The notes beneath the pieces were generated by a model. That model searched no databases. It saw only the letters and a program-made list of their open reading frames with translations, and was not told the DNA's origin. The translations under genes were made by a program, and so were the position numbers. DNA of 64,000 nucleotides from Sphingomonas lacunae (lineage in GTDB: Bacteria; Pseudomonadota; Alphaproteobacteria; Sphingomonadales; Sphingomonadaceae): assembly GCF_012979535.1 (NCBI RefSeq), contig NZ_CP053015.1, positions 2,852,001-2,916,000 of the forward strand, in the 5' to 3' direction. This document shows positions 4,443-39,917 of the stretch, piece by piece (position 1 is the first letter of the stretch; every line of letters begins with the position of its first letter).

Positions 4443-5147
4443 TCAGTAACGCGACAGTTCGTCAATCCTGCCGCGCAACATCTGTTCGATGCAGAGTTCA
4501 TCCCTGCATTGCGCCACCTGTGACAGGAACAGACGCTGATCAACCAGCACCTGGCGACGCAACTGACGGTTCGAACGGATCTGGCCGTAAAGAGTGCTCA
4601 TCTGGCGTTCCAGAGCAGCGAGGTTCGCGCTGCCGCAGATCATCAGTTCCACATCGGTCGTCGCCCGCGCGCAGGAAAAACTTGGCCCGCCAGATGCCGC
4701 TTTGGGCCGAGAGCGCTCTGCTGCCGGCATGGTTGGCGAGATTATGATGTCAGCGGCGGGCAACGGCTCAGCTGAAGTGTCGGGTTGCGACGGCGGCACT
4801 GCCGTTGTTGGCGTGGCATCGGGCCCTGCACCCACCGGAGCCGGGGCCGGACGCGCTTGACCTGCCACAGGCGCCGCGAGTGCGACATCGGGTTCCTCCC
4901 GCATGTACAGGTGCAGGGCCGTGCCAGTCAGGAAAAGCACGGCAAGCCCGGTGACAAGCCACGGCAGAAGCGAGGCAGAAGGGGCGGGCACTGGCGGCGC
5001 CAAGGGCGCTGCGGTAGGAACGTAGGGACTGGCTTGAGAAGCAGGACCGGTCGGTAGCCCGCGGACCACCGGAGCGCCACAGGCTCCGCAGAATCGGGCG
5101 TCTAAATCCAACGTGGTTCCGCAGACGCTGCAACCTCTTGTCATCAT
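4443..5147 (-). CDS. Zinc-ribbon, single-pass membrane protein with LprI/DUF1311-like C-terminus
   Basis: A protein of about 234 residues with three parts. The N-terminus carries a zinc ribbon (CSVCG then CGACG). A Pro/Ala-rich linker follows, then one membrane segment around LLPWLVTGLAVLFLTGTAL. After a second Pro/Ala-rich stretch, the C-terminus carries FSCARATTDVELMIC and RQVLVDQRLFLSQVAQC, the Cys-paired pattern of LprI-like (DUF1311) domains, some of which bind lysozyme. The likely topology is a cytoplasmic ribbon and periplasmic C-terminus. Two adjacent ATGs (5147 and 5144) follow a GGGGGG tract that acts as ribosome binding site, so the extra upstream codons are not used. Function is unknown. 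Confidence 0.7.
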   Translation of the reverse strand: MMTRGCSVCGTTLDLDARFCGACGAPVVRGLPTGPASQASPYVPTAAPLAPPVPAPSASLLPWLVTGLAVLFLTGTALHLYMREEPDVALAAPVAGQARPAPAPVGAGPDATPTTAVPPSQPDTSAEPLPAADIIISPTMPAAERSRPKAASGGPSFSCARATTDVELMICGSANLAALERQMSTLYGQIRSNRQLRRQVLVDQRLFLSQVAQCRDELCIEQMLRGRIDELSRY

Positions 5148-5170: not shown

Positions 5171-6049
5171 TCAGAGTCCAGCCGCGACCAGCCAATCGTG
5201 GAACAGTTTGACGGCCGGTCGTTTGAGCGCGCGTGGGCGGCAAACGAACCAGTAGCTGTAGGGACTGTCTATGTCGAAATCGAACAGCTTTGTCAGGCGC
5301 GGGTCATGGGCATCGGTGTAGTGGTGGCCGTGCATGAAGGCGACGCCGACACCCTGTGCGGCTGCCTCGAGCATCAGCGGGCCACTGTCGAAATGGTCGA
5401 TCCCGGCCGGTTCGAGCCAGGGCATGCCGATGGCATTGCGCCATTCGCTGAAGGTTTCCGGCATTTCGCGGTGAAGAAGCACGGTCATCCGCTGCAACTG
5501 TTCGGGCACGCTGATGCGTTCCGAACCCTCGCCAAAGCGTTTCGCGGCAATCGGATAGACCTTGTCTTGATCAAGGCGGACAGCGTGCAAGGCGGGATCA
5601 ATTTCCTTGGCCAGTGCAATCGCCGCATCAATCCCGTCGCCCAACCGGGTTTCGCCATGACCGACGGTCTCGATGTCGATATGCAGTTTGGGATGGCGCG
5701 CGCGCAGTTCGGGCAACCGGGGAAACAGCCGCTGCTGGGCGAACAGCGGCAGGACATTGAGCCTCAACCGCAATTCATCGGTGCGCTTGACTGCACCGTC
5801 AACGGCTTCGCGGACCGCGTCAAGCGCGGGACCAAGCGCGGACAACAGCCGCTCACCTGTCTCGTTGAGCCGCATGGCATGGTGGTCGCGGTCGAACAGC
5901 GGCTCGCCGATATGCCGTTCCAGTGTCTGAATGCGGCGTGACAGGGCGGGAGTCGACAGGGCCAGTTCCGTCGCCGCCGCCTTGACCGAGCCTAGCCGCG
6001 CGACGTGCATGAACGCCTCCAGCCCACTCAGCGAGGGTAAACGACGCAT
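5171..6049 (-). CDS. LysR-family transcriptional regulator (GcvA-like)
   Basis: A 292-residue regulator with a winged helix-turn-helix at residues 1-65 (LSGLEAFMHVARLGSVKAAATELALSTPALSRRIQTLE) and a LysR substrate-binding domain behind it. The N-terminus, LPSLSGLEAF, and the AT-ELxxSxPALSRxIxxLE form resemble the GcvA subgroup. The effector and targets are unknown, because no divergently transcribed target gene sits next to it; the nearest upstream gene lies about 380 bases away. ATG at 6049 is chosen because the longer frame runs into unconserved sequence. It is 23 bases downstream of the zinc-ribbon gene's start, on the same strand. Confidence 0.9.
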   Translation of the reverse strand: MRRLPSLSGLEAFMHVARLGSVKAAATELALSTPALSRRIQTLERHIGEPLFDRDHHAMRLNETGERLLSALGPALDAVREAVDGAVKRTDELRLRLNVLPLFAQQRLFPRLPELRARHPKLHIDIETVGHGETRLGDGIDAAIALAKEIDPALHAVRLDQDKVYPIAAKRFGEGSERISVPEQLQRMTVLLHREMPETFSEWRNAIGMPWLEPAGIDHFDSGPLMLEAAAQGVGVAFMHGHHYTDAHDPRLTKLFDFDIDSPYSYWFVCRPRALKRPAVKLFHDWLVAAGL

Positions 6050-8800: not shown

Positions 8801-8862
8801 AAGCGTAGCGCCCCCGGTGGCGGCTTGCAGCAAGCGTAGCGCCCCCGGTGGCGGCTTGCAGC
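8801..8862. repeat. Tandem 31-base direct repeat with downstream inverted partner
   Basis: Two identical 31-base units (8801-8831 and 8832-8862), each beginning AAGCGTAGCGCCCCCGG, lie directly behind the Cdc48-like gene. The second unit is followed by AAAA and then GCTGCGGGTTGCATGCCGGGGGC, an imperfect inverse complement of the unit's second half, so the RNA can fold into a long G+C-rich hairpin. It may act as an mRNA 3' structure or be a small chromosomal repeat element. Confidence 0.75.
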
Positions 8863-36446: not shown

Positions 36447-37181
36447 TCAAAAACTGCCCAATTGTTGAAGCATCCGGGCTCCCGACCGGCTGACCAGCGC
36501 ATAACCGCTGCCCTTGACCGTGCGCAGCATGGCATGCTCGTGCCCGGCGTCGATCCGCTGGCGCAGGCGTGACATATGCACTTCAATCCGGTTGGTGCCG
36601 GGATCGAAGTCAATCCGCCACACTGCCCGCAACAAGTCATGCCGGGTGACGACCCGGTCGGCCGAGCGCGCCAGCCAGGCGAGCAGGTCAAATTCGCGCA
36701 GGGGCATGGCAATGTTCCGACCGGCACGATTCACCGAACGGCGGATCAGGTCGATAGTCAACTCATCACAGGCGAGCATGGTTGCGGACGGCGTCCGTCG
36801 TCGCAACAGCGCCGACAGCCGGGCCATCATCTCCCGGGGGTCTCCGCTGACGGCAAAGGCATCATCGGCGCCGGCCTGCATCGCCATGATCCGCTGTTCG
36901 GCAACATCATCGGGCGTCAACGCCAAGAATGCGCGGCACCCCGCCATCTCGCGGAACAGGGTGATGGCGGTCCGGGGGTCGGCACGGCTGCGAAACGGAT
37001 TGGCGATGATCGCCTCATGCGCTTCGTCCTGCCAGGCACGCGACGCAATCGCCGGGTCGGGCATCAGCACCGGCAGGGCGCCATGGGCACGCAACAGGCA
37101 GGCCAGCTTGGCCGACGCGGTTGGCTCCGGCTCGAACAAGGCGAGCCGAACGGGCGGCTGGCCATCAGCGGCTATCATCAT
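36447..37181 (-). CDS. OmpR-type winged-helix regulator with degenerate receiver domain
   Basis: About 244 residues. The C-terminal part (residues about 140-240) is a transcriptional-regulatory winged helix: AMPLREFDLLAWLARSADRVVTRHDLLRAVW, NRIEVHMSRLRQRID and LRTVKGSGYALV. The N-terminal 115 residues have receiver-like spacing but LFEPEP replaces the acidic pair, IIANPFRS replaces the phospho-acceptor Asp stretch, and the Lys/Thr switch is absent. It is therefore probably phosphorylation-independent. Two adjacent ATGs (37181, 37178) are possible, each overlapping the end of the upstream cupin-like gene. No histidine kinase is nearby. Likely regulator of its own cassette. Confidence 0.78.
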   Translation of the reverse strand: MMIAADGQPPVRLALFEPEPTASAKLACLLRAHGALPVLMPDPAIASRAWQDEAHEAIIANPFRSRADPRTAITLFREMAGCRAFLALTPDDVAEQRIMAMQAGADDAFAVSGDPREMMARLSALLRRRTPSATMLACDELTIDLIRRSVNRAGRNIAMPLREFDLLAWLARSADRVVTRHDLLRAVWRIDFDPGTNRIEVHMSRLRQRIDAGHEHAMLRTVKGSGYALVSRSGARMLQQLGSF

Positions 37182-38088
37182 GCAGGGCCCTCGCGTCCAT
37201 GCGGTCGAGGAACAATTTTGCCATGCCGCTGACAAGCGGGGATGACTCCATTGTGGCCCGTTCATAGAGGCGCCGGCGGCCAGCCTCATCACGCACCCCT
37301 GCCATTGCCTGCCAGGCGCTCCATCGTGCCCGCTCGCTGGGATGGCTCCGGGCCAGGTGCGCGGCGAGTTCCATTGCCTCACTGCTACCAAGCCGCACCG
37401 CCATGCCGAGCAATATTTCCCCTTGCGATAGCGTCGGCACCCCACTGACATGGTTATGCCGCGTGTCGAACAGATATTGGTCCCGCCACACGGTTCCCGG
37501 CTGATCGGCGACAATGTTGAGCGAGACTGACAGGGCGGTTGGCGGCAACTGGTCATGGACATCGCGGTGGGCGCGATAATGCAGCACACGCCCCTCACCC
37601 AACTGGCCCTGTTCGACAAGCCGCAGGCCTGCGGCTTCACCCGGCACCCCGCTTATCGGGGTATCGTCCCGCTCATACCAGTTGCTGCGATAGCCCGGCC
37701 CCCAATAGCCGACGGTGACAAAGTCGAAATTATGGTCATGCGGGACATGATAGAAATAATGCTCGGCACCGCTGGCATGCAGCACCGGATCATCAGCTGC
37801 CGGCCAGAAATTGGCCCGGATGAACCACGCTCCAGGCCGCCGCGCCAGCATCAGCACTTGCGCGCCATAACGGTTGCCGGCCTGCTGTCCCGCGCACCGC
37901 TGGCGCAACTCATCCATCGCCAGTCGAGCCAGAAAGCCCCGATTGGCGCACAGTCCTGCCAACAACTCCCCAGCCCGAGCCACCCCGTCCGGGTTGGACA
38001 GGTCACACCCCGACTCATCCAGCCGCGCGCTGCATTCCTCCAGATCGATGGCGGCCACGCCCGCAGCATGGCGCAGCTCAACCGGCAT
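37165..38088 (-). CDS. Cupin-like protein with HxH motif
   Basis: A 307-residue protein that I do not assign to a named family. Residues about 110-215 contain HYFYHVPHDHNFDFVTVGYW with a HxH pair, and later HYRAHRDVHDQLPPTALSVS, spacing that fits a double-stranded beta-helix metal site as in cupin oxygenases. The N-terminal 90 residues are helical, and the C-terminal 90 residues are helix pairs like HEAT-type repeats (SEAMELAAHLARSHPSERARWSAWQAM). The ATG lies inside the last codons of the HEAT-repeat gene (11-base overlap), and the stop overlaps the regulator's start. Enzymatic role inferred only from the motif. Confidence 0.6.
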   Translation of the reverse strand: MPVELRHAAGVAAIDLEECSARLDESGCDLSNPDGVARAGELLAGLCANRGFLARLAMDELRQRCAGQQAGNRYGAQVLMLARRPGAWFIRANFWPAADDPVLHASGAEHYFYHVPHDHNFDFVTVGYWGPGYRSNWYERDDTPISGVPGEAAGLRLVEQGQLGEGRVLHYRAHRDVHDQLPPTALSVSLNIVADQPGTVWRDQYLFDTRHNHVSGVPTLSQGEILLGMAVRLGSSEAMELAAHLARSHPSERARWSAWQAMAGVRDEAGRRRLYERATMESSPLVSGMAKLFLDRMDARALHDDSR

Positions 38089-39037
38089 GGGCTGCCTCCC
38101 TGGTCATGCGCGCGATCAGCGCCATTGTCGCCTTGGCCGCGGTCCGCACCGATGGATCGGCGTCATCATCCGCCATCCTCGTCAGCACTGGCAGGGCATC
38201 CCTGGCATCCTCGGCCAGCCAGTAGCGCATCGCCTGCCAGCGCAACATCGGGTCAGCGTCGCGGCACAATCGCGACAGCAACTCGCACCGGCCCTCCGGA
38301 CCTGCCGTCGGGATCAATGGCAGCAGCAACAGCATTCTCGACACCGCCGGATCGGCCGTGCCGCGCCGCAGCAGTTGTCCCGAATGCGCGTCAAATTCGA
38401 GGGTAGGCCCGCTCCTGTCCGGCCCTGCGACTGCCATGTTCAACAGCAGCGCATCGGCGGGCGCGCTGTGGATGATGAGTTGTTCGGTGCGGTTGTCCTG
38501 CGCCAAAAGCGCACCTCGCCCCATCCGGCAAGTTCGTTCCAAACACGCGTTGCCGTTGCCCCTGTCGAGCCGCCAAAGCTCCACCTCGATTGTGCCGGCC
38601 ACCACAAAGACCAGCGAAAAGCCACTGTCGAACACCAGCCGGCGCGCTTGGCCGGCCCCGGCTTGCACGGCGAGCCGTTCGGCGCCCAACTGCGCCAATG
38701 TTGCATACGCGCCCCCTGCCTCGATCAGCGCCAGCGCCTGCATCAGCCCACCGGACTGCATCCCCATCGGTAACTCGGCCAGCGCGTCGGCCGAAAGGGA
38801 CTGACAAAATGTGCCTATCAGATCCCGATACCAGCCATCGTTCACCAGCCACGGCATCAATGCATCGGCAAACGCCATCGCATCAGCTGGCAAGGCTGCA
38901 TCCATTGCCATCAGCCGGTCGCGCAGGGCCCGGACATCCTCACGCGCCTGCCAAGCGCCCATCAACTCCGCGCCAATTGCCCTCGCCCTCTCAAGCCGGT
39001 CCCGGTCCGCTAACGCACAGGCCAGCGAACCGGGCAC
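38078..39037 (-). CDS. HEAT-repeat protein with cupin/cNMP-like central domain
   Basis: About 320 residues if translation starts at the GTG at 39037; the start is uncertain. The N-terminal half is helical (RDRLERARAIGAELMGAW). A beta-rich centre (RRLVFDSGFSLVFVVAGTIEVELWRLDRG and MGRGALLAQDNRTEQLIIHSAPADALLL) resembles a cupin or cyclic-nucleotide-binding barrel without clear ligand residues. Helical repeats of HEAT type follow (ADPMLRWQAMRYWLAEDARDALPVLTRMADDDADPSVRTAA). The longer frame reaching 39202 overlaps the peptide gene in another phase and is probably not translated. A stem-loop separates it from the peptide gene. Confidence 0.6.
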   Translation of the reverse strand: MPGSLACALADRDRLERARAIGAELMGAWQAREDVRALRDRLMAMDAALPADAMAFADALMPWLVNDGWYRDLIGTFCQSLSADALAELPMGMQSGGLMQALALIEAGGAYATLAQLGAERLAVQAGAGQARRLVFDSGFSLVFVVAGTIEVELWRLDRGNGNACLERTCRMGRGALLAQDNRTEQLIIHSAPADALLLNMAVAGPDRSGPTLEFDAHSGQLLRRGTADPAVSRMLLLLPLIPTAGPEGRCELLSRLCRDADPMLRWQAMRYWLAEDARDALPVLTRMADDDADPSVRTAAKATMALIARMTREAAHAG

Positions 39038-39047
39038 AGCCGATGCT

Positions 39048-39077
39048 GGCAGGCTGTCGCCGCCAGACAGTCCTGCC
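39048..39077 (-). other. Stem-loop between the peptide gene and the HEAT-repeat gene
   Basis: On the minus strand GGCAGG-A-CTGTC pairs with GACAG-CCTGCC (eleven pairs, one bulged A) around a 7-base loop. It starts 3 bases after the peptide stop codon and has no T-run. It may protect the 3' end of the peptide mRNA or lower transcription of the downstream genes. Confidence 0.75.
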
Positions 39078-39080
39078 GCA

Positions 39081-39224
39081 TCAGGATGCGGAGACGATGA
39101 CGGCGATGACAATGTCGAACACCGTGCCACCGCTGATCTGCAACGGGGCGTTGATCGCGCCATAGGCAGCCGGCACCACGTCCAGTTGCGGCACGAGCTC
39201 AATCGAAAGCGAAACCAGGTCCAT
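39081..39224 (-). CDS. 47-residue peptide, putative precursor or membrane peptide
   Basis: Too short for normal ORF calling, but preceded by AAAGGGGGTCAAG, an excellent ribosome binding site 5 bases before ATG. The product begins MDLVSLSIELVPQLDVVPAA, contains a GG pair after residue 31 (QISGG) and ends in the hydrophobic TVFDIVIAVIVSAS. It has no Cys. The N-terminal half is amphipathic and acidic. It is followed by a stem-loop and three downstream genes on the same strand. The layout resembles a precursor with a double-Gly-type leader, but no peptidase-exporter or known RiPP enzyme is visible. It could instead be a small membrane peptide. The 183 bases upstream to the thioesterase gene contain its promoter, not located with certainty. 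Confidence 0.55.
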   Translation of the reverse strand: MDLVSLSIELVPQLDVVPAAYGAINAPLQISGGTVFDIVIAVIVSAS

Positions 39225-39407
39225 CTTGACCCCCTTTGGCTATGGGCCGGACTGCGACCCCATGCCGCATCCGGACACAGGGCAGGCTAGGCACGGGACG
39301 GCGAGGTGCAAATGAACTTTGCTTAATCGCCGGGCCATGCCGGGCGTCGGCCTGCCTGTCGCAAACAGGGGGTTGCCGCCCCTGACGCAGCGGCTAAGGC
39401 AAGGGGC

Positions 39408-39917
39408 ATGAGCGATGCACCGCCCACCTTTGTGTTTGATCCCGCCCGCATGTTCCGGACGATGGAGAAATATGGGCACAGTCATGCGCTGGGTCTCAAA
39501 TATGTCGCCCATGGCCAGGATTGGGCCGAAATCCGCATGCCGTGGAAAGCCGAACTGGTCGGCGACGCTGCGGCTCAGACCCTGTCGACCGGAGCGATCA
39601 TCGGCCTGATGGACATGTGCGCCGGCGTATCGGTATGGACCCGCCTGTCGGTGTTCCGGCCACAGGCGACGCTTGATCTCAGGATCGATTACATGCGTGC
39701 GGCTGCACCGCGTGCCGATCTCGTCGCCCATTGCGAATGCTATCGTGTCGCCCGGGACATCGCCTTTGTCCGGGGCCTCGCCCATGATGGGGACATGGCG
39801 GACCCCGTTGCTACCATGGCTGCGAGCTTCATGTTTACCGGACCGCCGATGCCGCCCCGCGGCAGCAAGGGCAATCCCCTGCCCGACCATGCCGCCAAGG
39901 CGGAGCGCGGGGCATGA
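39408..39917 (+). CDS. PaaI-family hotdog thioesterase
   Basis: A 169-residue acyl-CoA thioesterase of the PaaI/DUF4442-like group. The fold signature is seen in VGDAAAQTLSTGAIIGLMDMCAGVSVW, ATLDLRIDYMRAAAPRADLVAHCECYRVARDIAFVRGL and VATMAASFMF. It hydrolyses acyl-CoA thioesters, substrate unknown. The stop overlaps the start of a second thioesterase in ATGA, so the pair probably forms a functional unit. It is divergent from the peptide cassette. Confidence 0.88.
   Translation: MSDAPPTFVFDPARMFRTMEKYGHSHALGLKYVAHGQDWAEIRMPWKAELVGDAAAQTLSTGAIIGLMDMCAGVSVWTRLSVFRPQATLDLRIDYMRAAAPRADLVAHCECYRVARDIAFVRGLAHDGDMADPVATMAASFMFTGPPMPPRGSKGNPLPDHAAKAERGA

Follow-up and report, generated by a model that had tools for sequence, protein, structure and literature searches.

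What does a stable RNA fold do when it is placed between a short peptide gene and the genes that follow it? The question is raised by the minus strand of the window, the whole 64-kb stretch of DNA analyzed here, in which a GC-rich stem-loop is present at the end of a precursor-like peptide gene of 47 aa (39081 to 39224; TGA stop codon at 39083-39081). Two genes, designated B (38078 to 39037) and C (37165 to 38088), follow on the same strand. The initial annotation described this element as a hairpin of 11 pairs with one bulge, and suggested that it points to differential expression of the peptide relative to the downstream genes.

Two abutting hairpins at the end of the peptide gene

Folding of the minus strand from 39077 to 39048 (GGCAGGACTGTCTGGCGGCGACAGCCTGCC) reproduced the 11 pairs and a single bulged A, with a free energy of -18.0 kcal/mol, and the stem begins three bases past the peptide stop, as had been reported. 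None of 300 shuffles of this 30-nt stem was equally stable (z = -3.36). The described stem proved to be only part of the structure. Five extra outer pairs (GATGC/GCATC) extend it to hairpin 1 (39042 to 39082, minus strand), a 41-nt form with 16 pairs (-25.6 kcal/mol, z = -4.44, 0/300 shuffles), in which the GA of the peptide stop codon is paired. Hairpin 1 is directly abutted by hairpin 2 (39041-38994, minus strand), the stronger of the two (-32.9 kcal/mol; core stem 39001-39034), which occupies the beginning of gene B and covers its likely start codon. The 89-nt pair of hairpins folds with -60.5 kcal/mol and a z of -5.93, a stability reached by none of 300 shuffles. With flanks (38980-39100), the junction gave a z of -3.29 (2/300 shuffles as stable), and the plus-strand reading with flanks a z of -2.00 (7/200). 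Windows of 60 nt placed at -20, 0, +20, and +40 from the stop of this locus gave z values of -3.78, +0.26, -4.25, and -3.05, and the first 70 nt past the stop gave -0.57; the values of +0.26 and -0.57 arise because windows cut there split hairpin 2.

Stable folds are readily found in GC-rich DNA, and the stem could be a chance hairpin of this genome. Measured against the 64-kb window (63% GC), which served as the rarity background, 82 places on both strands equal or exceed the 30-nt stem in stability, itself and its mirror counted, and 36 places are as stable as the 41-nt form. The two nearest relatives (L003 and L033), in which B starts 5-6 nt past the stop, are also without the window's hairpin. 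The 89-nt pair, however, is matched in stability at only two places, itself included, among 42,608 windows of the stretch, and its location coincides with the peak of structure found across the family (see below), so that a chance origin appears very unlikely. The other place as stable as the pair is an 89-nt segment at 8806 on the plus strand. A search of the genome that allowed up to three mismatches found the stem once, on which ground its reading as a repeat element was rejected, and a search of 38800-39500 against Rfam returned a sole match below threshold (E = 0.7; 13.4 bits, compared with a gathering score of 291).

The first start codon in the frame of gene B is a GTG (39035-39037, minus strand), 43 nt past the peptide stop, and is its likely start. 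The homologue in L003 starts three codons ahead of the matching SLA, at the place that corresponds to this GTG. Resemblance of the gene-B frame to its homologues is confined to the part beyond the hairpin, in agreement with the earlier remark that the frame becomes protein-like only there. The peptide gene is preceded by a ribosome site (AAGGGGG, 39230-39236, minus strand) with a predicted anti-SD pairing energy of -11.2 kcal/mol, compared with -1.1 kcal/mol for gene B. An ATG overlapping the peptide stop (TGATG) begins a short frame of 23 codons, closed by a TAG (39082-39014, minus strand), which is out of the gene-B frame.

Structure recurs at the junction

The generality of the fold was assessed by sliding 60-nt windows across 126 non-redundant loci, with z computed against shuffles and positions counted from the peptide stop. 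Mean z over these loci was -0.82 at 0, -2.08 at +20, and -1.05 at +40, while the other 51 positions ranged from -0.59 (at -20, where the junction is still overlapped) to +0.32. At least one of the four junction windows fell below -2.5 in 81/126 loci, compared with 10-22/126 in ten control groups of four. The 45 loci that did not pass include L003, L033, L004, L013, L089, L095, L101, and L122. The B-C junction, compared in 114 loci, gave no signal (mean z of -0.18 to +0.29, with 0-5 loci below -2.5). The position of the peak differed among lineages: mean z was -2.06 at 0 in the genus group (24 loci, without the window, L003, and L033), -3.51 at +20 in the Erythrobacter/Novosphingobium type (62 loci), and -1.39 at +20 in the remaining 40 loci, the window among them.

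A leaky transcription attenuator, in which the hairpin stops most transcripts past the peptide and a fraction reaches B and C, is a rival reading. A run of at least four T by the hairpin end is present in four of the 126 loci (L031, L046, L059, and L061), and in the divergent locus L164, six T overlap the end of the stem. The remaining 122 loci are without such a run, and a consensus scan calls no terminator at L164 either. In the window, no T-run directly follows the stem (past 39048, minus strand) and no terminator is called at it, upholding the initial view that this is not a normal terminator; a terminator in the strict sense is unsupported there because the T-run is missing. We therefore regard attenuation as unlikely.

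The hairpin might instead be a spacer fold for translational coupling, which merely brings the peptide stop and the B start close together. Hairpin 1 of the window spans the distance from stop to start almost exactly, and B is without a ribosome site of its own. When the start of B was taken as the first in-frame ATG (or GTG), a hairpin with a free energy of -22 kcal/mol or lower was found between stop and start in 20 of the 24 genus loci, and none in the loci with a short spacer. The exceptions were L041, L044, and L059, whose B starts lie at 19, 8, and 12 nt and which have no such hairpin, and L051, which has a weaker one; in L059 and L051, ATG codons also occur farther on, at 60 and 66. A spacer fold leaves unexplained hairpin 2, as well as the lineage whose stem lies after the B start, and as an account of the junction it is quite improbable.

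The contrast in ribosome sites seen in the window was also found elsewhere, in a comparison that used, for B, whichever candidate start scored best. The peptide had the stronger site in 23/23 loci of the genus group and in 29/35 of the other loci (B in 4/35). In the Erythrobacter type, the peptide had the stronger site in 38/60 loci and B in 15/60.

Covariation of the stem in a sister lineage

The stem of the Erythrobacter/Novosphingobium type is found 28-52 nt past the stop, within the first codons of B (commonest form, ALRSDRAPQR). An alignment of 62 sequences (61 distinct) was assembled by amino-acid similarity alone: 70 of the 126 loci have a B N-terminus with a consensus score of at least 20, and the 62 that score at least 29 entered. 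Among the eight left outside, L113 and L065 pair well, and L016, L068, L093, L028, L041, and L026 do not. In the alignment, 91.5% of the cells are paired, and changes on both sides were observed at 9 of the 12 pairs. The covariation score was 0.306, compared with 0.154 (sd 0.011) in shuffles, none of 500 being as high, and sliding the partner by one to three columns lowered the score to 0.049-0.099. The synonymous Leu and Gln codons of the two arms change together in the 70 loci: CTG occurs with CAG in 43 and TTG with CAA in 13, while the mixed combinations TTG-CAG and CTG-CAA occur in two and zero, respectively, and other combinations in 12. G-U cells outnumber A-C cells, 36 to 17 over the 61 rows, and 26 to 5 when the count is limited to the 50 rows that pair best, which favors pairing in the coding-strand RNA, with the reservation that the sequences are related rather than independent and that codon use may bias the count.

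These observations bear on the idea that the element acts in DNA, as an operator or cruciform, rather than in RNA. Perfect inverted repeats could be bound by a dimeric protein. The compensatory changes preserve pairing as the sequence shifts, and for this reason lower the standing of a DNA operator. The excess of G-U over A-C on the coding strand, the unrelated sequences found at the same place in different loci, and the single genomic copy of the stem all argue in the same direction, making a DNA-level element extremely improbable.

Compensatory changes had been put forward as the check on the stem. They were found for the junction feature in the sister lineage, where the stem lies inside B; the 24 junction sequences of the window's own genus aligned poorly, and RNAalifold returned no consensus. 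The broader proposal of differential expression has gained from the recurrence of structure at the junction in the 126 loci and in distant ones, from the covariation in one lineage, and from the difference in ribosome sites, and is weakened by the two nearest relatives that are without the hairpin.

The same arrangement in distant loci

A stem follows the peptide gene in seven distant or divergent loci as well. On a plasmid of Alteromonas stellipolaris (L143, CP013927.1), a 41-aa peptide, a perfect stem of 11 pairs, an SD-like AGGAG, B, and C follow one another in this order, flanked by HlyD, ABC ATPase, and MacB genes on the upstream side and by an ABC transporter pair on the other. A second short peptide at 4621-4737 of this locus, ahead of the family peptide, also has a stem after it (z = -2.71). 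In L171 (3298-3798), three tandem precursor-like peptides are encoded between a MacB exporter and gene B; stems follow the second and third, and none follows the first (z = +1.96). HlyD, ABC, and MacB genes lie upstream in this locus and an ABC ATPase gene downstream. In L161, L162, L163, L164, and L173, the stem comes directly after the peptide. The z values past the last peptide were -4.29 (L143), -5.96 (L161), -3.38 (L162), -5.52 (L163), -5.35 (L164), -2.71 (L171), and -2.21 (L173), while control windows of the seven loci had mean z values of -0.27 to -0.03, with 1-6 of 166-213 below -3. L163 and L164 belong to the same family as the window. For L161, L162, and L173, the peptide is less sure because it was chosen for its size, place, and ribosome site, without a family match, and the choice among several short open reading frames favors the z values of these three loci. 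The hairpins of the distant loci are unrelated in sequence and share the same position. No family peptide was recognized upstream of the B-like gene in L144, a relative on a Vibrio plasmid, and L172 and L174, which have no clear precursor upstream of B, were omitted from the outgroup list. A weak peptide-family match is present in L172 at 5479-5598, downstream rather than upstream of gene C.

What recurs is a stable stem just past the precursor gene and ahead of the partner genes, whatever its sequence. The simplest function of such a stem would be to keep the output of the precursor above that of its partners.

The peptide-B-C cassette

The cassette consists of a 40-60 aa peptide, gene B (cupin and HEAT), and gene C (thiol-dioxygenase fold and HEAT). 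The AlphaFold model of B (pLDDT 91.7) is a degenerate cupin barrel with HEAT-like helices (Pfam HEAT_2, E = 2e-5), whose best structural match has a Z of 12.0 (rmsd 3.7 over 149 residues). The model of C (pLDDT 94.9) has HEAT-like helices and a thiol/cysteine dioxygenase fold, which matches 4tlf_B through residues 12-219 with a Z of 13.9 (rmsd 3.4, 162 residues aligned), so that the cupin fold of that enzyme family is present. Gene C shares this fold with the cysteine and thiol dioxygenases but only 17% identity, adds a C-terminal helical domain and, unlike them, has a peptide gene as its constant companion; dioxygenase activity is putative. The iron of thiol and cysteine dioxygenases is held by three His ligands. 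In gene C, H117, H119, and H178 are invariant in 50 sequences and are candidate ligands.

Searches of NCBIfam, PHROGs, and PADLOC gave zero matches for the window's peptide, B, and C, and their Pfam matches were limited to HEAT and a weak row for DUF1513. For four peptide relatives, neither NCBIfam nor Pfam gave a match. Sequence searches of the PDB yielded none for B and three rows at chance level for C.

The cassette was found to be common in Sphingomonadales and sporadic elsewhere. In a sample of 298 genomes of the family, 106 carry relatives of gene B (E = 1e-3); many of the weakest rows (about 1e-4 to 1e-3) match a different open reading frame of ~1,400 codons, and these were not counted as cassettes. 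Within the window's genus, 59 of 80 genomes have a gene C relative (a few of them partial). A collection of named genomes yielded 110 stretches with such relatives, 80 of which were kept; the named relatives are mostly Sphingomonadales. In a draw of 398 genomes across the phylum, 15 have one (E = 1e-10), two of these outside the family. With duplicates counted, 134 of 141 loci encode a family peptide ahead of B. No peptide was recognized in L036, L039, L045, L052, L060, L120, and L123, five of which have gene C within 800 bases of the contig start; removal of these seven and of repeats of the same junction leaves the 126 loci used above. The upstream neighbors seen in the window (a siroheme-synthase-like gene and two thioesterase genes, so named by their NCBIfam and Pfam matches, and a putative lysA) are shared by 37 of 64 loci, counting the window itself, and the cassette has therefore often been inherited in place.

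Neighbors in the window that have a family match are metabolic or regulatory. One of them, a winged-helix response-regulator-like gene (36447-37640, minus strand), overlaps the end of gene C and may be part of the operon. Its true start is probably internal because only the C-terminal part matches (Trans_reg_C), and it is absent from the shared neighbors listed by neighbor clustering.

Comparison with known intercistronic hairpins

The hairpin is a variant of an already known kind of element. In the puf operon of Rhodobacter, an intercistronic hairpin lies between pufA and pufL; the genes for small proteins lead the operon, and their ratio to the downstream genes is fixed by segmental mRNA stability (PMC6238624). 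The title of a 1987 puf paper cited there names the deleted element an intercistronic hairpin loop region. The window likewise has a stem-loop that follows a small gene and precedes further genes of the same orientation, and both systems are alphaproteobacterial with the small gene first. The genes themselves are unrelated, and the window's element, which is known from sequence, differs in that its hairpin reaches the stop codon and a second hairpin covers the next start.

In epeX-epeE of Bacillus subtilis, a stem-loop between the precursor-peptide and modifying-enzyme genes coincides with a drop of mRNA at the epeX end; the annotation there is that of a Rho-independent terminator, to which an sRNA binds (PMC12871923). 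The position between a precursor or precursor-like peptide gene and a partner gene is shared. The window's stem differs in having no T-run, and sRNA binding is a feature of epeX-epeE. The gap between precursor and enzyme genes also limits enzyme expression in lasso peptide operons, where its exchange for a ribosome site raised yields and where, for astexin-1, a hairpin in the gap was removed (PMC7549694 and PMC6092494). The window differs from these operons in having no lasso enzymes, B and C being cupin-HEAT proteins.

A model for the junction and its implications

Taken together, the junction is probably an intercistronic RNA element of two abutting stem-loops, which would hold peptide output above that of B and C. 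One transcript would cover the peptide, B, and C; a sigma-70 scan of 38000-39500 found no promoter-like site. The stem-loops may shield the 3′ end of the peptide segment following cleavage or an early stop of transcription, and may also mask the start of B. Since the start would be hidden in this way and has no ribosome site of its own, B would be translated mainly through coupling to the peptide. The outcome would be a peptide in excess over its two cupin-HEAT partner proteins. The means by which this is reached may be mRNA-end protection, partial termination, a masked B start, or a mix that depends on the lineage.

The layout, a short precursor gene beside conserved enzyme-like genes, resembles that of a RiPP cassette. 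The constant gene order and the exporters in two of the distant loci suggest an action of B and C on the peptide. A description of the cassette was not found in the open-access journal literature searched, and the cassette looks undescribed. Tentatively, it could represent an undescribed class of modified, exported peptide, with one to three precursors that B recognizes and C oxidizes, and with a conserved intercistronic stem-loop that sets the precursor-to-enzyme ratio, with a range that begins in Sphingomonadales and reaches at least one member of the Gammaproteobacteria, Alteromonas; we consider this possible rather than probable.

The structure also points to an unnamed peptide/dioxygenase-fold cassette, whose gene C is carried by 59 of the 80 genus genomes. 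A stem recurs at one junction although its sequence and exact site change, and in one lineage it covaries within coding sequence. The junction is thus a testable case of RNA folding that sets the ratio of a peptide to its partner proteins.
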